50,581 nt of DNA from Microcaldota archaeon (GCA_028867145.1 JAGWGX010000005.1:1-50581), one strand, 5' to 3'. Positions 5,056-40,902 are shown, counted from the stretch's first letter. Translations and numbers: made by a program. The notes: generated by a model not told the origin, from the sequence alone.

Positions 5056-5532
5056 TTAGCAGGTCGGAATTGCTGTCCCCATAGAGTTGCCCAATATGAG
5101 GTTTATTATTATCGGAGCGAGCACTGCAAGCAGCGCGACAGTAATTGCGCCAAGTACAAGCCCGATCCCATAGCCCTGATATGAGCCCTTTTGCGGAGGT
5201 GGAATTGCGTGCGCAATCGCGTAAATCACTCCCCCCAAGACAAAGAGAAGCAGGCTTAGCGCGTAGAGTACTTCGCGGATGAGAGAGTAAATCTTGCAAA
5301 GCTGCTCTGAAAGCGAGGGGGTAAGGTTGGGATTTGAGGTCTGGACGCAGACCACGTAGTTTGTGGGGCACTTTGAGAGGTCCTGCTGCGGCGTGCAGTA
5401 CTGCGGGCAGGAGGCGATGCTTGCGACCTGGCAGTTGGTCGCAAAGCTGCCGCAGTAGTTGTACTGAGCCTGCACCGTAATGGAAAGCAAAAGGGAAAAA
5501 AGAATCAGGAGATAAATTGGCAAACTTCGCAT
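5056..5532 (-). CDS. Small secreted/membrane protein, VirB2/TrbC-like layout
   Basis: The product (158 residues) starts MRSLPIYLLILFSLLLSITV, a clear signal peptide, followed by a Cys-rich segment with seven cysteines (for example SCPQYCTP, KCPTNYVVC) and then two membrane segments (VLYALSLLLFVLGGVIYAI and GLVLGAITVALLAVLAPIII) joined by a short Pro/Gly/Lys loop. Two membrane helices behind a signal peptide with a charged turn is the layout of VirB2/TrbC-type pilin subunits and of related archaeal small membrane proteins; this is a structural likeness, not a family match. The last residue of the protein is Cys. The frame extends to 5589, but the Met at 5532 gives the natural signal peptide. 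It follows the stalk-like gene by about 34 bases. Confidence 0.7.
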   Translation of the reverse strand: MRSLPIYLLILFSLLLSITVQAQYNYCGSFATNCQVASIASCPQYCTPQQDLSKCPTNYVVCVQTSNPNLTPSLSEQLCKIYSLIREVLYALSLLLFVLGGVIYAIAHAIPPPQKGSYQGYGIGLVLGAITVALLAVLAPIIINLILGNSMGTAIPTC

Positions 5533-5566
5533 TGTAACGAATAAGAGATGCAAAAACAGCTCTAAA

Positions 5567-6058
5567 TTACTTCTGCTGCGCGATTCCAAGCTGCTCGTTT
5601 AGGAAGGCAATCGCCTCAGCGGCGCTTACCTTGTCCTCCGGAACCCCGATTGTCTTGAGCACCTGCACAAGGTCCTCGACGGTTATCTCCCTTCCGACCG
5701 AGAGCAGGAAGTAGTAAGCATAGACATAGACCAGGTGCGATTTTATGTTCGCCTTGAAGATCGCGTCCAGCAGCTCGTCCTTTGGCTTGATCTTTAGGAG
5801 CTGCAGGCAGTTTATCATGTTCTCGCGGCTGATCTCCCTGCCCGTCAGGCTGAGGAAACCTGCGACATAAAGGTACGACGAAATCCCGTCATGTATGTGC
5901 GCCTTTATGTTCTCATCCCCAAGCGACCTTTTCAGCTCGCTGAGCAGCAGCGCGGTTGTTATCCTGCTCACCATCTCAACAGTCGCCGAGAGCCCGATGA
6001 AGATTGAGTTCGCGCTGGGCTCAAGCGTGCTTGGATGAGGAGTTAGGCCGGTTGGCAT
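5567..6058 (-). CDS. Tandem P1/L12-stalk-like domain protein
   Basis: A 163-residue protein containing two copies of a block that closely resembles the N-terminal dimerisation domain of archaeal ribosomal stalk protein P1 (typically YxYAALLLHxxGKEIxEENLxxVLxxxGV). Copy 1 spans about residues 61-104 (YLYVAGFLSLTGREISREN), copy 2 about 109-155 (VYVYAYYFLLSVGREITVED, then LVQVLKTIGVPEDKV). The acidic hinge and the phenylalanine-rich C-terminal tail that recruit elongation factors are missing, so it is not the canonical stalk protein. It might mimic stalk dimerisation or bind the stalk base protein P0; this is inference. The gene is followed closely by the VirB2-like membrane protein. Confidence 0.65.
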   Translation of the reverse strand: MPTGLTPHPSTLEPSANSIFIGLSATVEMVSRITTALLLSELKRSLGDENIKAHIHDGISSYLYVAGFLSLTGREISRENMINCLQLLKIKPKDELLDAIFKANIKSHLVYVYAYYFLLSVGREITVEDLVQVLKTIGVPEDKVSAAEAIAFLNEQLGIAQQK

Positions 6059-29761: not shown

Positions 29762-30160
29762 TTAGCATACGGTCTGGAAGAAAATATTTTGCGTGTAGGA
29801 GTTTGGGGTTTGTGCAACGGGTATGTTGACGCCCAGGTAAATGGTGTTGGTCGAAAGAGAGGGCAGCAGCATCGCGGTGTTTCCAAATGCGAGGCTGACG
29901 GAATTTGAGAGGTATCCCGCCCCATTATTGTTTGCGGAATTTGAGTATATCGTATTGCTCACGAAGAAGTTTATCGCTGAATTGTCCCCAATCCAGTTGC
30001 TACCGGATATCCAAAGATATCCCTGAATGTTGCCGTTGTTTGTTGAGGAGATTGCATTTGCAAGCGGGGAGTTGCCCCCTGGGTTTGTGGCAGGGAGGCT
30101 CACGGCGCTGTTTGAGAGCACAAGCGTGCAGGTGGTTGGAACGTTCACTGTGGCAATCAC
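29762..30160 (-). CDS. Small secreted protein with C-terminal-Cys surface module
   Basis: The visible module (about 132 residues) starts ATVNVPTTCTLVLSNSAV and ends SYTQNIFFQTVC, with Cys as the last residue. It is closely related to the C-termini of the products of 31062-31592 and 31655-37249 (shared GSNW, NFFVSNT, NGAGYL and GVNIP blocks). The first usual start codon in frame is a GTG at 30160, but the frame continues upstream to about 30260 and there encodes a convincing signal peptide (ISINLLLLIGIFSLVFLSVG) without any ATG, GTG or TTG. An ATG at 30286 overlaps the previous stop but is in another phase. A frameshift or a non-standard start is therefore likely. Confidence 0.7.
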   Translation of the reverse strand: MIATVNVPTTCTLVLSNSAVSLPATNPGGNSPLANAISSTNNGNIQGYLWISGSNWIGDNSAINFFVSNTIYSNSANNNGAGYLSNSVSLAFGNTAMLLPSLSTNTIYLGVNIPVAQTPNSYTQNIFFQTVC

Positions 30161-30281
30161 GTTCGTGGCTGAATTCGCAAAGAGTGATGGACCCAGTCCC
30201 CCAACTGAGAGAAAAACAAGAGAGAAAATCCCAATAAGCAGGAGCAGATTGATAGAGATGGTGCCAACGCCTGTCGTAGCA

Positions 30282-31052
30282 TCACTTCTTTTTGGCGCCT
30301 TTCTTCTGCTTCCTTGGGGAGCGCTTTGCGGATTTCTTTGAGGCTGTGGACTTTGCTGCCTTCTCCGCCATGCTCGCCTGCTTGCCTATCATTCGCGCCT
30401 CTGCTAGCAGCTTTGCGCGCTCAGACCTTAGCTTCTCCTCCATCCTCCTTAGCTTCTCCTTTGCGATCTCCTTTTGCCTCTTCGCCCTCTTCGCCCGCTC
30501 CTCCTTGCTGTTGTACTTAGGGAGGAACTTGTATTTGTAGTAGTAAATTCCAAGCGCTATTGCAATGACGATGCCCGCGATTATCGCTGCAAGGGCGAGC
30601 GGGTCAATTGTCGCGGGCTGCGACTTTATCACAATCTCCTTGCCGACTCCGCCCTGTATCTGGGCGCCGCCGGTTCCCTGCGTAAAGTTGAGGGGCTGCG
30701 CAACAGATCCTATGACGCTGTCCCACCTGATCCCAGCCTTGTTGTTTAGGTAGGGCAGTGTTATCACCACCTTAACGGCCACTGTCGTGTGCGGGGCTAT
30801 CGTGCCATTCATCGGCACCGCGACAACGGTAGGGGCGGTTGCATTTGGAATAGGGGTGAATGTGGGCAAAATGACCCTGTAGGCAAGGGGGATGTCGCCG
30901 GTATTCACAAGCGACCAGTTCCTTGTGGCGGTGCTGCCGATGCTCATGTTTATCACAAACGCACCAGCCGCCTGCCCGAGCTGGGCATGGTAGACGTTGG
31001 CGGTCAAAATAAGGGATAGTAGGAAAAAGAAAAGAGGAACCCTAATCGCCAT
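30282..31052 (-). CDS. Type I membrane protein with basic coiled-coil tail
   Basis: A 256-residue protein: signal peptide (VPLFFFLLSLILTANVYHA), a beta-sandwich-like outer domain (about 30-150; NWSLVNTGDIPLAYRVILP, with NAT and NFT glycosylation-type sites), one membrane segment (LAAIIAGIVIAIALGIYYY, about 153-172) and a cytoplasmic part of about 80 residues. The cytoplasmic part is a charged coiled coil (REEKL-type heptads, KEIAKEKLRRMEEKLRSERA) that ends in an extreme Lys/Ala/Ser tail (KSAKRSPRKQKKGAKKK). It lies between two genes with the shared C-terminal module and could link the surface layer to an inner partner such as the MinD proteins or nucleic acid; that link is inference. Confidence 0.8.
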   Translation of the reverse strand: MAIRVPLFFFLLSLILTANVYHAQLGQAAGAFVINMSIGSTATRNWSLVNTGDIPLAYRVILPTFTPIPNATAPTVVAVPMNGTIAPHTTVAVKVVITLPYLNNKAGIRWDSVIGSVAQPLNFTQGTGGAQIQGGVGKEIVIKSQPATIDPLALAAIIAGIVIAIALGIYYYKYKFLPKYNSKEERAKRAKRQKEIAKEKLRRMEEKLRSERAKLLAEARMIGKQASMAEKAAKSTASKKSAKRSPRKQKKGAKKK

Positions 31053-31061
31053 CCAAACACT

Positions 31062-31592
31062 TTAGCAAACGTTATTTATCACAACGTTCTGTGTGTATGA
31101 ATTTGCTGTCTGCCCATTTGGTATGTTAACCCCAAAGTACAAAGTGTTCGTGGCACCTGTGGACACAAGCTCTCCGGTGTTTCCAGTTGCCAGCCCGACC
31201 GAGTTGAAAAGGTAACCCGCTCCCTCATTGTTGAAGGAGTTAGAGTAGATAGTGTTTGCAACGAAGAAGTTGACGGCGATGTTCACGCCTATCCAGTTGC
31301 TTCCGGAGATCCAGATGTACGAACCCACGTTGCCGTTGTTCGTGTCCGAGACGACGTTGCCGCTTGCCCCGACCCCGGTGCTTGTGCCAGGATTTACGGT
31401 GAAGAAGTTAATTGCGCTGTTTGAGACTGCAAGAACGCACGTGGACTGCACGTTGACCGTCGCAACCACGTTTGTTGACCCGGAGTTAGCAGAAAGTGAG
31501 ATTCCACTGAATGTGAAAGACACAACGCTCAAGACCATCGCAGCCATAAGCGCGATGATGCCCAAATTTACAATAACAGCCCTATTGTTCAT
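31062..31592 (-). CDS. Small secreted protein with C-terminal-Cys surface module
   Basis: A 176-residue protein: N-terminal signal or anchor (NNRAVIVNLGIIALMAAMVL), then the 130-residue module (VVATVNVQSTCVLAVSNSAI to SYTQNVVINNVC). One Cys lies at the start of the module and one is the final residue; they may pair. The product is little more than signal plus module, so this could be the minimal, pilin-like building block of the structure. The frame extends to 31661, but the ATG at 31592 gives the better signal peptide and avoids overlap with the giant gene upstream. TATA-like TTTAAATAG lies about 34 bases upstream. Confidence 0.8.
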   Translation of the reverse strand: MNNRAVIVNLGIIALMAAMVLSVVSFTFSGISLSANSGSTNVVATVNVQSTCVLAVSNSAINFFTVNPGTSTGVGASGNVVSDTNNGNVGSYIWISGSNWIGVNIAVNFFVANTIYSNSFNNEGAGYLFNSVGLATGNTGELVSTGATNTLYFGVNIPNGQTANSYTQNVVINNVC

Positions 31593-31654
31593 AAAGTTCG
31601 CCAAGTATATTATTAAACTTCTATTTAAAAAGCTTTTGCTAAGTGCGGTGGGGT

Positions 31655-34600
31655 TCAGCACACATTGAGGAAGACCACGTTTTGGCTAAAGTAGGCGGAG
31701 GTCTCGGCCGTAGGGATGTTAACCCCGAGGAAAAGGGTGTTTGGAGTCGTTGTGGTCACAAGCATTCCGCTGTTTGATGTAGAGAGGCCGAGGGAGTTGG
31801 CAAGATATCCGGCGCCCGTGTTGCCAAACGAGTTTGAGAAGAGCGTGTTTGAGACGAAGAAGTTGGTCGTCGCGGGGCTCGCAAACCAGTTGCTCCCGTA
31901 AACCCAGAGGTACGAGGACTGCGTTCCCGCATTGGTGTCGGTCACCGCATTTGTTGGTGAGCCGGAAGATCCCGGAATCACGTCATTGGCCGAGCCGCTA
32001 AAGAGGACCACGGTGTTGCTAAGCGAGAGGGTGCAGGTTGAGGAAATTGTATAGCCTATGGTGGCGGTGTTGCCGGTGCCGGAGAGGGCGTTGCTCTTGG
32101 GATCTCCTGCGACCAATGTGCCTGAGGAGGGAGTTGGATTGAACAGGTTGCCAAGGAAGGTGACCGCGTTTGCGATGAAGGAGTAGCTTCCGGCAGGCAC
32201 ATTGAAGGTTATCCTGTTGTTTAGTATTAGGGGCGCATAGTAGATCGTGTTGGTGGAGGCAAAAAGTGTGCTTCCGCCGATGCAGTACCAGTTGTCCCTC
32301 CACGGATCTGGGCAGCTCATTGAGGTGTCGTTGGTGAAGATATTGCCCACCCCGTTTGAGGACCAGGCCCCTATTCCGGGATTTAGGATGGGGGCAAAAT
32401 AAAGCGAGTTCTGCGGCCTCGATCCCTGATAGCCGCTCTTGCAGAAGATATTTCCCGAATCAATAGTGCACTGCCCATACTCCCCATTGTAGGGGATCGA
32501 GTTGGTGTTCACCCATGCTCCCACGATGTTTGTGGAGAAGATCGGCGCATAATATGCCTGCTTGTCGTAACCCACTCCGTTGTAGCCATCAACGCAGTAG
32601 ATGTAGCCGTTGTATACCGGACACTGCAACCCCTCAATTGTCTGGGGATATGAGTTTGTGTTGATCCAGGCGCCAAGCGCGTTGGTGGTCGTGACTATGG
32701 GCGCATAGTAAACAAGCGCCTGATCCACAAAGGTATTTGCCTGTCCGCCTACGCAGTAGATGTTCCCGTTGTAAAATCTGCAATCCTGCGTTAGTATGTT
32801 CACAGGGTATGCGGTGGTCGAGGTCCAGCTTCCAAGCGCGTTGGTGGCGCTGCTAATCGGGGCCCAGTAGACATCGGAGACGTAAAGGCTTCCCGTGCTC
32901 TCCCCCCCAATGCAGTAGATGTTGCCGATGTTGCTTGGAATGCATACGGGATTGATTATGTTCTCAGGATAAAGCTGCTGCTGCGTCCAGCTCTTGATTA
33001 TGTTGCTGCCAAGTATCTGCGTCTGCTCCACGTCGTTGTTGTTGCCAAGGGTGGGGTTTGCCCCCCCGATGCAGTAGATATTGCCATTATACTGCGCGCA
33101 CCCCTCGTTCTCCACATTTTCAGGATACGCATTGCCCACGGACGGGCTGCTGCCCAGATTGGTCCAGGCGCCAGCGATTGAGTTGGCGATTGTCTGGGCG
33201 GTGAGTATTCCGTCATAGACCACGTTCCAAGATGCGCCTATGGGCAGACCGATTGCGGCAAAATAGGAGTTATACTTTATGGAGGTTACGGTTATGGTGT
33301 TTGTCGTCGAGATTTTAAAGGGGGTTGTTGCGCTGTCCGTTATTGTGAGTGCAAGGTCAAGCGGCCCGAGCGCATTGTTCGTGCCGGTTGGCAGGGAGAA
33401 TGAGAAGGTGTTTGAGCTTACGGTGTTTGAAACGAGCATGTTGGCGATCACATTTCCGTTTATGCTGTTGGTCAAATAGTAGTTGTAGGTGTATGATGAG
33501 CTTCCTCCAGCAAACGAGGCAGTGAGCAGCTCTGCCTGGCCCTGGGCGGCAAACCAGTTTGAAGAGATAATGGAGTTGCCGGAGCTTGAGAAGGTGAGCA
33601 GCCTGTTGTTTTGCTCGTCACCGACGACTAGGAAGTTGCCGTTTGAGTTGAACGCCATCCCCTTGGGGCCCACAAAGTTCTGCTGCGTGGTTGCGCCCAC
33701 GGAAGTCGGCCCTCCTGAAGGGCTAAGGCTGTTTTGGCCCAGCACAAGCGAGGCAACCTCTCCGGTCGAGAAGGGGGACAAAAACTCAAGAACGCGGTTG
33801 TTGTTGCTATCCACCACCCAGAGGTTGTTTGCATTGTCAAACGAGATCGAGCTTGGCCCGCTTAGCCCGTTGTTTGTTGCAAGCGCCGTGTTCACAGTGT
33901 AGCTGGTCTGGCCGATTATTATGTTTGCGCCCTCGTTGCTTGTGAAGGGCGTGTCGTACTCGAGGACTCTGTTGTTCCCAAAGTCCGTGACCCAGAGGTT
34001 TCCGCTGGGGTCAAAATTCACCCCCTTTGGAAAGATCAGCCCGTTCTGGGTTAGAAGGCCGGCGTTGGTCGTAAAGCTGCCCTGGCCGATAGAGACCGTT
34101 GCGCCCTCGTTGCTCACAAAAGGGGTTGGGTATTTTAGGACCCTGTTGTTTGCAGCATCCGTTACCCAAAGGTTGCCGCTGGGATCAAACTCCATCGCAA
34201 TAGGGGAGATCAGCCCGTTCTGGGTTAGAAGGCCGGTATTTGAGGTGAGCCCTGACTGGCCTATTGCAACCGTCGCAGACTCGCCCGTGGAAAGGGGGGT
34301 CGGATATTTTAGGACACGATTGTTCCCAAAGTCAGCCACCCATAAATTCCCGTTGGAATCTATTCTCACAGTATAAGGATTTATCAGCCCTGCAGCGGTG
34401 TCTGCGCCCGTGTTCGCAGTAAAACCGGATTGGCCGATTACTATCCCGGCCCCTTCATTGTTTGTGAAGGGAGAGTTGAACTCAAGAATCCTGTTGTTGC
34501 CGCTGTCTGGGACGAAGATGTTGCCGCTGATGTCAAAGTCTGGGCGCCTTGGCAGGAAGAGGCTGTTTTGCGTCGTGGATGCAACCACCGCGTTTGTTGT

Positions 34601-37300: not shown

Positions 37301-38074
37301 TTAGAAGCCGATCACTCGCCTTAGCCACCCGATTATTCCCCCGCCGCTTGGAGCCGCGGGCGGGACGCTTATTTGCAGGGAGTAGCCCCTTGAAAACTTT
37401 TCCATCACCTTTGTAAAAGGGGCGGTGCTGTACATGAACACAGGGATCTTGGAGGCAATGCTCATTGGCACGCTGTCATCCTCCGGAAAGAGCGCGGAAA
37501 CCTTGTTCCCATAGGTGTCCTCTATCTGCTCCACGTTCAGCTCCCACCTCCTGTTTCTCACCCTGTTGATCACTATGCTGTGCTTTAGGTGAAGCTTGCC
37601 AAATATTTGGGAGAGGCGCATTGCGCTTGCTGTGGCCTGGATGTCAGGCGTTATAACTATTGCGGCTTCGTCAGAGTTTCCGAAAAAATTGTTTTGGGAA
37701 AAGCCCGGGGGCGTGTCGATTATCACAAAATCGTAGGAGGTGCTTTTTATCAGCCTGTCAAATCTTTTTATCTGGGCCTGGTTGGGCTCATACATGCCAG
37801 AACTCTGCTCCCCTCCAAGCACGTGGATGCCTGTGGGCGAATGAATAGATATCGAATTTGCGAGATTTGCTTTTCCAAGCATAACGGACTTGAACCCCTT
37901 GTTTATGTTCTCAAGCCCCAGATGGAATCCGACCACCGGATTCACATAGTCAGCATCCACTATGAGCACCTTGTGGCCCATGTTCCTCAAAGCGACTGCA
38001 AGATTTACGGAGATGGTCGTCTTTCCAACCCCTCCCTTTTGCGATGAGATTCTAATAGTGTACGGATTTGCCAT
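37301..38074 (-). CDS. MinD/ParA-type ATPase (copy 2)
   Basis: A 257-residue deviant-Walker ATPase that would dimerise on ATP and bind a surface. Deviant Walker A KGGVGKT at 13-19, switch I VDADYVNP (38-45), Walker B IIDTPPGF (about 117-124). The protein ends GGGIIGWLRRVIGF, a short amphipathic helix like the membrane-targeting sequence of MinD. A motif APFTKVMEKF near the end is shared with the two paralogues. It starts 4 bases after copy 1 and precedes the giant surface protein gene. A role in placing surface structures on the membrane is inferred; no FtsZ or MinC/E gene is nearby. Confidence 0.9.
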   Translation of the reverse strand: MANPYTIRISSQKGGVGKTTISVNLAVALRNMGHKVLIVDADYVNPVVGFHLGLENINKGFKSVMLGKANLANSISIHSPTGIHVLGGEQSSGMYEPNQAQIKRFDRLIKSTSYDFVIIDTPPGFSQNNFFGNSDEAAIVITPDIQATASAMRLSQIFGKLHLKHSIVINRVRNRRWELNVEQIEDTYGNKVSALFPEDDSVPMSIASKIPVFMYSTAPFTKVMEKFSRGYSLQISVPPAAPSGGGIIGWLRRVIGF

Positions 38075-38078
38075 GCGC

Positions 38079-38879
38079 CTACCTTCCCTGCAAAATCTTG
38101 CGTATTGCGAAGATTATTTTTGAGAGCACGCCTTCCTGTTTTGGCGAATTTTTGCCCGCAAAGCCAAGCTTCACTGCATACCTATCAGCAAGGCTTTTTA
38201 TAGCCCTGCTGAAGGGGGCGTGCGGATTTGTGGTGTACGCAGGAACATGCTCTGCAACGCTAATCGGGATCGTCTCGTCATCCGGAAGCGTAGCGCTGAT
38301 CTTTCCGCGGTAGACCTCCTCCATCTCCCTTGCATGCAGCTCGTACCTCTTGTTCTTGAACTTGTTCACCACAAGGATGTGCTCAAGTCCAATCTTGTCG
38401 TAGTGGTTTGCAAGCCTTGCCGCGCTAATTGTTGCGGAGGTCTCAGGGGTGGTGATGATTAGCGCCTCGCCAAATGCCTTCAGGTTCTCCTCTGGCAAAA
38501 ATCCCGGGGGGGTGTCAACTATCACGATGTCATATCCGCTCTTTTCGATCTGCCCAAAAAGGGTAGCAAGCTGCTCCTTTGTCGGAGTGTGCGTTTGCGC
38601 ATGCATCTCGCCTGGCAGGACGTGCATCCCTGTTGCAGCGTGGATAACTACAGCATTGCTTTTTAGCGCGGATTTCCCCATCAAGACGGACCTCACTCCG
38701 CTGTTGCTGTTTTGAAGTCCTAGGTGAAAGCCGAGGCTTGGGTTTATGAAGTCAAAATCAATCAGCAAGACCCTCATCCCAATTGCGCTAAGGGCCGCGG
38801 CCAGATTCACGGAGACCGTTGTCTTCCCCACTCCCCCTTTTTGGGATGAGATCCTAATCGTAAAGGGCCTGCTACTCAT
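38079..38879 (-). CDS. MinD/ParA-type ATPase (copy 1)
   Basis: A 266-residue paralogue of the next gene: Walker A KGGVGKT at 14-20, [15 protein letters not shown], Walker [11 protein letters not shown], and [14 protein letters not shown]. The C-terminus [18 protein letters not shown] is a basic amphipathic helix, again MinD-like. Start chosen at the ATG 38879 ([11 protein letters not shown]); an upstream Met at 38885 exists. The start region overlaps the stop of the upstream surface protein gene by 8 bases, coupling the ATPase to that membrane-anchored protein. Confidence 0.9.
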
Positions 38880-40902
38880 TCTCACTCCTCTTTATTTGCT
38901 CGCGAAGCCGCACCAGTTGCTCTGAGGTCTCCTTACGGTACCTTGGCTTTGAGAGGTAGCGCCTAATGAGCAGCAAAATAATGGCTGCAGCAATTATTGC
39001 AATCACCCCGATTCCCTTGAAGGGAAGCGCGGAAATTATGCTGCCGATTTGGTAGGGCGTGCTTGGCGGCTTTGTTGCACTCCCGTTCGGCGACTGCTGA
39101 TTGTTTAGCGCGATGAGCGGAAGGGAGTAGGTGTAGTTGAAGCCGTCCGCGGTATTTATGTATAGATTGAGAAGGTATGTGCCCTGCGCTGTGCCCGTCG
39201 AGACGTCGAACCTTGGATTTATCAGCTGGTTAGGATTTGCGGTTATGGTCTGGCTCGCATTTGCGATGCTAATGCCCGTGGGCGCAGTAAGGGTGAATGT
39301 TATTTGGTTTGGGTCATCGCCAGTATAGAGCGCAAATATGCTGATCCTGTTTGTTGCGTTTGTGTAGAATGTGGGGAAGGCGATGTTCACCACCTTTAGT
39401 ATGCTAGAGGGCGCAGGAGGCGATGGCTGCGCAAGCATGTTCTGTATTACGTCAAGCAGCCTCATGCTCTGCGGCCTGTTGATTGTGTAGTACCCAAAGA
39501 CTGATGTGGATGGGCTGATCTGCGGAATCTGCCAGGTTATTGTGTAAAATCCCGGAGGATCGGTGACATTTGCCTGAAGGCCGGTCGTTGTTATGTCAGA
39601 GAGGTTTTGCGCAAGCGCAAGCGGGATTAGGGTCTGCAGTGTGACATTGTTTAGCGATTTTGTGGTGGGGTTGCTCACCTGGATCACTCCCCTTGCGGCG
39701 TTGCTCCCGTTTAGCAGCACCACCTGGTTGACGACCTTTATGCTGTTGTTTAGGGGCGAGTAGATGTTGAGCGTGAAGTACTCGGTCTGGTTGACGCTCG
39801 TGCCTCCCGCATTTAGGTTAACGCTAAGCGGTAGGATGTATGTGCCAGAGGGCATGGTCGCATTTGGGGCCACGAAAAGCTGTATGCTCACCTGCTGATT
39901 CGGCAGGAGGTAAAGCGAGGAAGTCGAGAGTTTCACGAAGTTTTGGAAGGATTTTGGAAATGTGAACTGGATTGACTCAGGCTGGTTGCCCGCATTATGT
40001 AGCGTGAATGTTGAGAGCCCCTGCGAGCCAAGCTGTATAGAGCTGTATATGGGAGTTGAGACAAACGAGAGGGCGGGAATCGGAGTTATCGGTGTAGTGG
40101 CAGCGGTTGCCGAACCTCCGCCTCCGGCGCCCCCAACAGTGGTGCCTGATGATGAGACAGTATAGCGCGCGGTCAGGATGTTCGTGGTGACAAGCGTGTT
40201 GACTGTGTAGGTCTCATAGGCGGTGATTGCGTAAGATCCCGAGGTCGCGGTCGCATTGTTTAGCGAGATTGAATATGTTGCGCTCTGCCCAGGGGAGAGG
40301 GATGACTCAGGGTACTGGAGCTTAAGCGTGGTCGGGCCAATGATGTTTACATAAAGTGTTGCGGCACCAGAGCTAAACTGCCCAATGTTCTGCGAATTAA
40401 GGCTGATTGTAATTGAGCTGCTCTGCACCAGGCTTGAAGGCACCGAGAGCGATGAAAGGGAGAGATTCTGGGGGTTTAGCAGCGAGAAGGTGTTTGTGGA
40501 GGAGGCGATGAAGCTGTTGTAGGCGAATGTTATCGTGCCCGAATAGGCGGTGTTTGTTAGTATCTGCGAGTCCACAATCGCATTGAACGTCTGCTGCGCA
40601 AAGCCGATGCCGTTTGCAACCAGGTTGTTTGAGAAGACGACCGTGTTCGTGTTAATTTGCGTGAGCACGAAGTTCCCGTTCATCGAGCCAATCGAGCATG
40701 CGCTAAGCGTGTTTAGCGTGTATGGGGTGCTTATTGTGCCGACCCTGCTGTAGACCGAGGAGGGAATGTAGGAGACCGCAAAGGTGCAGGCGGGCGTAAC
40801 TGTTATGCTCGCCACGATGTTTGCGGTTTGGGAATTTGCAAAAAATAAATTGGGCAAAAAGAGTAAAATAAATAACGTCAGTAGCCCCAGGCGCATTCGC
40901 AT
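38872..40902 (-). CDS. Large membrane-anchored surface protein
   Basis: A 676-residue protein: signal peptide ([18 protein letters not shown]), an N-terminal beta domain starting [16 protein letters not shown] (similar in opening to the C-terminal-Cys modules), several Ig/NPCBM-like beta-sandwich domains with many N-glycosylation-type sites ([38 protein letters not shown]), one C-terminal membrane helix ([17 protein letters not shown]) and a cytoplasmic tail of about 25 charged residues ([16 protein letters not shown]). It is the first gene of the cluster and overlaps the first MinD gene, so its tail is a candidate receptor for the MinD ATPase. Confidence 0.85.

Follow-up and report, generated by a model that had tools for sequence, protein, structure and literature searches.

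The closest described relatives, in organization or in likely mechanism, of the locus reported here are chaperone-usher pili (classical Fim/Pap, class 5 CFA/I and archaic Csu), bacterial WxL clusters, and a set of fibers comprising the Sulfolobus thread, Pyrobaculum bundling pili and TasA. In chaperone-usher pili, the subunit is an incomplete Ig-like domain with an alternating N-terminal strand, the tip protein carries a subunit domain at its C-terminus, and an Ig-like extracytoplasmic partner, the two-domain periplasmic chaperone of the PapD type, acts together with an outer-membrane usher. Lys112 of PapD reads the C-terminal carboxylate of its client. WxL clusters combine a small WxL protein, a large WxL protein and a WxLIP, which consists of DUF916 and DUF3324 followed by a transmembrane (TM) helix (PMC10599100). 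The thread (Saci_0406; PMC9715654), homologues of which have been reported in some Crenarchaeota (PMC9715654), the bundling pili and TasA are made of Sec-exported subunits with an N-terminal donor strand; thread and bundling pili are long homopolymers, and the cap protein of the thread lacks one half of the donor/acceptor pair. Our searches of open-licence papers returned none that describes a donor-strand system for Micrarchaeota. Cryo-tomography of Micrarchaeum harzensis has recorded symbiont-host filaments in contact with the S-layer; the same work lists the way its S-layer protein is anchored as unknown (PMC8975820).

The sequence analysed here (the window) is a stretch of 50,581 nucleotides from a member of Candidatus Micrarchaeota. 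The named relatives in the genome collection belong to Candidatus Micrarchaeota as well and include Micrarchaeum sp. A_DKE and a Mancarchaeum. We read the operon listed in Table 1, with a probability of about 0.6, as encoding a short donor-strand chain that would display a giant adhesin on the cell surface. Three secreted proteins encoded on the minus strand, the giant and two small proteins (Table 1), each end in a related module of about 135 residues. Over that length the other two modules are 62% and 47% identical to the first, so the three are paralogues and not chance matches, and the shared module noticed in the first-pass annotation of the window is confirmed. The motifs it listed (STC/TTC-xLxxSN, GSNW, NFFVxNT, GAGYLxNS and GVNIP) are present in all three products, and the translations end in VC, with Cys as the very last residue. 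The organism's own genome assembly (681 kb in 40 contigs, with an archaeal RNase P) holds exactly these three copies.

The start codons of the small proteins deserve comment. For small protein 1, comparison with relatives favors a start at the 31592 ATG over one at the listed GTG (31661). For small protein 2, the region 29762-30300 has no in-frame ATG, GTG or TTG ahead of the hydrophobic N-terminus, and the listed GTG at 30160 falls inside the mature module. A same-genus homologue (L051:11401-11988) likewise lacks an in-frame ATG, GTG or TTG and overlaps the stop of its Ig gene; a non-canonical start or a frameshift are candidate readings for both. Residues 342-437 of the giant match the PGF-pre-PGF domain (NCBIfam TIGR04213, 42.4 bits, cut-off 28), with no PGF-CTERM after it.

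Table 1. Coordinates of the operon's products, modules and leading strands in the window
Feature	Position	Strand	Remarks
C protein	38872..40902	-	signal, CARDB/Ig-like ectodomain, C-terminal TM helix, short basic tail; predicted base or anchor
C protein leading strand NIVASITV	40798..40821	-	pattern as in small proteins
MinD/ParA-like ATPase 2	38079..38885	-	
MinD/ParA-like ATPase 1	37301..38074	-	
Giant secreted protein, 1864 aa	31655..37249	-	NHL repeats, S/T-rich stretch, C-terminal module without conserved leading strand; predicted tip adhesin
Giant's C-terminal module	31658..32068	-	last codon Cys at 31658-31660
Small protein 1	31062..31592	-	signal/hydrophobic N-terminus and one module
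Small protein 1 module	31065..31472	-	AlphaFold model, pLDDT 88.4
Small protein 1 leading (candidate donor) strand NVVATVNV	31449..31472	-	
Ig/ASH-like membrane-tethered partner	30282..31052	-	signal, one Ig-like domain, TM helix, Lys/Arg-rich tail
Small protein 2	29762..30280	-	hydrophobic N-terminus and one module; overlaps the end of the Ig partner
Small protein 2 module	29765..30163	-	leading strand NVIATVNV at 30140-30163

A profile search of relatives contradicts the strict picture of a domain that always sits at the C-terminus, by the very observations that the first-pass annotation had named as refuting: 23 copies lie mid-protein, and ten of these have neither Cys. The two residues behave as a unit. 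Among the protein-terminal copies at all loci of the fetched relatives, 135 of 136 end exactly at Cys and 135 of 136 have both cysteines; the mid-protein copies have both (13) or neither (10) and never one, and the two Cys columns of a 97-row alignment show both in 89 rows, neither in eight and a single Cys in none. Such joint retention or loss is what an internal disulfide would predict, a bond that probably links the beginning of the domain with its final residue. Thus, of the earlier alternatives of a disulfide clamp or an attachment site, the clamp gains support. Of the proposed "sorting or assembly tag", an assembly module is favored by inference, and a sorting tag in place of PGF-CTERM is not supported. 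The PGF motif and TM helix of PGF-CTERM/archaeosortase substrates were not found in the module, which stops at Cys with nothing after it. A divergent module in A_DKE closes an open frame of 5127 aa one residue before its end (SDCA; L127:1225-16605, G152:C1 about 256225-271605), and this frame has a hydrophobic segment near its N-terminus.

The product at 5056 had been cited as an unrelated protein that also ends in Cys. It does belong to a separate family, and many, though not all, members end at or near Cys. The protein (5056-5589) is small; its N-terminus is rich in Cys and its C-terminal half is hydrophobic. It has no Pfam match, and relatives were found in 40/40 related genomes searched. 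Of 17 homologous frames read, about nine have Cys as their exact last residue, so a terminal Cys appears again in another membrane family, one unrelated to the module.

The module was detected in 31 of 60 related genomes with a three-row profile and in 32 with a 97-row profile. In a sample of the phylum, 94/301 genomes have it; most of these fall into two families of the order, and other families of the class contribute weaker members. Nothing in Pfam or NCBIfam matched it above cut-off (97 modules scanned in Pfam). A sub-threshold Pfam match to DUF4402 (E 0.0023, from few members) covers almost the whole module, and there is one sub-threshold match to the spore coat U family (SCPU); in both cases the module scores under the curated cut-offs. 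A search of PDB chains with the module's sequence profile returned no pilin at E<=1, a result that bears indirectly on kinship by sequence with the major subunits Saci_0406 and AbpA of thread and bundling pili.

The genes around the module are ordered in a consistent way. Relatives show the order C protein (C), MinD/ParA-like ATPase (M), giant (G), small or double-module protein, Ig partner, and the window follows it, with two ATPase genes and a second small gene after the Ig gene (Table 1). In relatives, the C protein is mostly 640-770 aa, M is represented by one or two ATPases, the giant spans 700-2200 aa, the small protein has about 180 aa and the double-module protein about 330 aa; C protein and Ig partner have the architectures given in Table 1. 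The giant is the variable member: it carries NHL repeats here, and other beta-propeller matches or no known domain elsewhere. An Ig gene adjoins nearly every small or double gene, the exceptions being one contig end and one distant relative, and some giants lie away from any small/Ig pair. Module and Ig partner occur together in 29/60 relatives, the module alone in three (short contigs) and the partner alone in two (Fisher p=2.5e-11, relatedness uncorrected). The cultivated Micrarchaeum harzensis strain (L128, L129) carries the operon, as do roughly half of the 60 related genomes searched. Giant and small modules resemble each other more within a genome than between genomes (0.444 versus 0.362; 0/2000 permutations), and the same-genome value also exceeds that for giants compared across genomes (0.401). 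Such likeness would be expected from gene conversion or from matched interfaces. One genome (G212, L133-L135) has about ten modules, and five of its small genes surround a single Ig gene, which we take as an expanded version of the system. A 461-aa open frame at L068:5743-7125 runs from a MinD-like ATPase into a small module protein without an intervening stop, through either a fusion or a missing stop.

What separates the secreted proteins is the strand that leads the module. In small proteins, a strand of the pattern xVxAxVxV comes right after the signal peptide, just ahead of the first Cys, and hydrophobic residues occupy its four alternating positions in 94/74/87/94% of copies. In doubles, the figures are 100% for first modules and 93-100% for second modules. 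Giants, in which other domains precede the module, reach only 34/51/37/37%. The C protein, to which the module profile has no match, begins its mature sequence with a strand and Cys of this kind in 23/27 copies, against about one expected from shuffles, by a motif written after the sequences had been seen. In the other four, the motif lies outside the tested stretch (one), the N-terminus is absent (one) or the strand has no Cys (two). From this pattern, the operon codes for donor-only (C), donor-acceptor (small) and acceptor-only (giant) proteins, a set that suggests the grammar of a donor-strand chain.

Predicted structures point the same way. AlphaFold models a single window module with good confidence and a natural double-module protein of a relative at pLDDT 93.6. 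In the double, residues 156-163 (SVLATANV), the leading strand of module 2, form a beta strand, and module 1 has both an early strand at 25-31 (AIYFPGL) and an unbroken last strand at 129-141 (NYVQTIYFENENL). In module 2, which no further module follows, coil takes the place of the early strand and the last strand is interrupted, just as in the single window module. The simplest reading, with pairing taken from secondary structure, is that the leading strand of module 2 fills the groove of module 1. The best PDB matches of the double in Foldseek, tandem pilins completed by donor strands among them, were a CfaB-CfaB fusion (1.8e-6), CsuC-CsuE (3.1e-6) and a CfaE-CfaB fusion (1.6e-5, TM 0.56); RbmA, ASH domains of cilia and antibody fragments matched as well. 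For the single module, donor-strand subunits figured prominently: Csu, TasA, CfaB, FimG, the TasA-like TLP-1, Caf1 and Pyrobaculum bundling pili were among the best, in matches that are weak (E 3e-3 and above, TM about 0.45) and that also include GH123 N-domains. The GH123, RbmA and antibody-fold matches indicate that part of the Foldseek signal is a generic Ig-like fold.

In the domain of the Ig partner, a Gly, a Pro and a Lys are invariant. The first two thirds of the domain profile match ASH-type domains of HYDIN and CFAP65, and the profile aligns with EfmWxLIP1 over positions 8-119 of 122 (E=0.001); three of 30 partners match WxLIP_PGBD (best 2.3e-5). The invariant Lys (numbered K138 or K116) could, as a hypothesis from analogy and not from homology, play a part like that of PapD Lys112, which would explain the exact C-terminus of the module.

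We propose that the module is an incomplete pilin-type beta-sandwich, whose groove is flanked on one side by an early strand (pattern I-x-F-G) and on the other by the C-terminal strand ending in Cys, and that the mature N-terminal strand (xVxAxVxV) of a neighbor fills this groove. The C protein, anchored in the membrane by its C-terminal helix, would insert its free N-terminal donor strand into a small protein, and the strand of that small protein would in turn enter the C-terminal module of the giant; lacking a conserved donor strand, the giant would form the outer end of the chain. Double-module proteins would be two links fused. The membrane-tethered Ig/ASH-like partner most likely holds the module until a donor comes, in a chaperone or docking role like that of PapD or WxLIP, and the MinD-like ATPase may position the complex within the cell. 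The sequences show the homology of the modules, the strict pairing of their cysteines, the conserved operon and a leading strand common to C and small proteins but not conserved in giants. The fold and the strand exchange are predictions from AlphaFold and Foldseek; the disulfide, the chain and its direction, the chaperone role and attachment to a host cell are inferred one step beyond these.

Such a system would share with chaperone-usher pili a predicted incomplete Ig-like subunit, an alternating N-terminal strand, a tip protein that ends in the subunit domain and an Ig-like extracytoplasmic partner, and its fold matches include theirs. It differs in that neither module nor partner has detectable sequence homology to the pilins and chaperones of E. 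coli. Comparison by hhalign with 13 pilins of E. coli K-12 gave E 0.35 (probability 0.2%) for the module, and comparison with its eight PapD-family chaperones gave E 0.035 (probability 1.5%) for the partner, in neither case a similarity; membership in the classical chaperone-usher class was rejected on these values. The partner is membrane-tethered and has one Ig domain in place of two, a donor-only membrane anchor is present, and the cysteines sit at the start of the domain and at the very last residue. An outer-membrane usher is not expected in a one-membrane archaeon. With the thread, the bundling pili and TasA, the locus would have in common Sec-exported subunits with an N-terminal donor strand and an end piece without one half of the donor/acceptor pair, as in the thread's cap; the single module has fold matches to 7ueg and TasA. 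Instead of a long homopolymer, the locus has one to five small subunits, a giant as the end piece and an Ig partner of its own that is anchored in the membrane.

The same gene set can be read differently. The layout of a WxL cluster, a small domain-only protein, a large protein with the domain at its C-terminus and an Ig-like protein with a C-terminal TM helix, is found in the micrarchaeal locus, and the lengthwise alignment of the partner with EfmWxLIP1 and the WxLIP_PGBD matches add to this likeness. The modules might therefore bind the S-layer or its glycans while the Ig-TM partner clamps them to the membrane, with no strand-exchange chain. We consider this unlikely: the WxL Pfam family is unmatched at E<=0.1 among the 97 modules, the consensus lacks the two W-x-L motifs, the partner has one domain of weak DUF916-like similarity and not the DUF916-DUF3324 pair, and the leading strand common to small and C proteins, but not giants, is left without a role. 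The C protein and the MinD-like ATPase are also extra to a WxL cluster. Since homology to chaperone-usher pilins and chaperones and the WxL motifs were both looked for and not found, we file the system under neither class; by analogy, it would work like a short chaperone-usher tip fiber, or a thread with its cap, and be organized like a WxL locus.

Two further readings dispense with a chain altogether. The module may be an ordinary disulfide-stapled beta-sandwich stalk domain, spread by duplication and gene conversion, in which the terminal Cys is merely the end of the last strand; the Cys pairing, the likeness of giant and small modules within genomes and the Ig-like and GH123 fold matches all agree with this. 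It is nonetheless a doubtful account, as it leaves unexplained a leading strand that small, double and C proteins conserve and giants do not, the lasting adjacency of small and Ig genes, and the completed first module of the double model. Far less probable is that the terminal Cys is a site of covalent attachment or lipidation in place of PGF-CTERM, an idea that draws on the near-invariance of that residue in terminal copies. A single-Cys site needs no partner and would not survive mid-protein, yet, with a single exception, every terminal Cys is accompanied by a second one, and the mid-protein copies either retain this pair or lose it whole; a lipid or attachment tag was rejected on these mid-protein pairs.

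Within the donor-strand reading, host adhesion is suggested as the function by the giant, variable end protein, by the symbiotic lifestyle of Micrarchaeota and by the symbiont-host filaments reported for M. harzensis; on these data, the proteins could equally well attach the cell to some other surface or anchor the S-layer. The fuller proposal, a new DPANN donor-strand apparatus of anchor, adaptor pilins, giant adhesin, Ig chaperone and MinD-like positioning ATPase that attaches Micrarchaeota to Thermoplasmatales hosts, is a tentative one. The operon offers concrete candidate proteins for the way in which ultra-small DPANN archaea may cling to their hosts, and for these the model predicts which strand binds which groove. 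If correct, it would add another archaeal donor-strand system and would link the logics of WxL clusters and pili.
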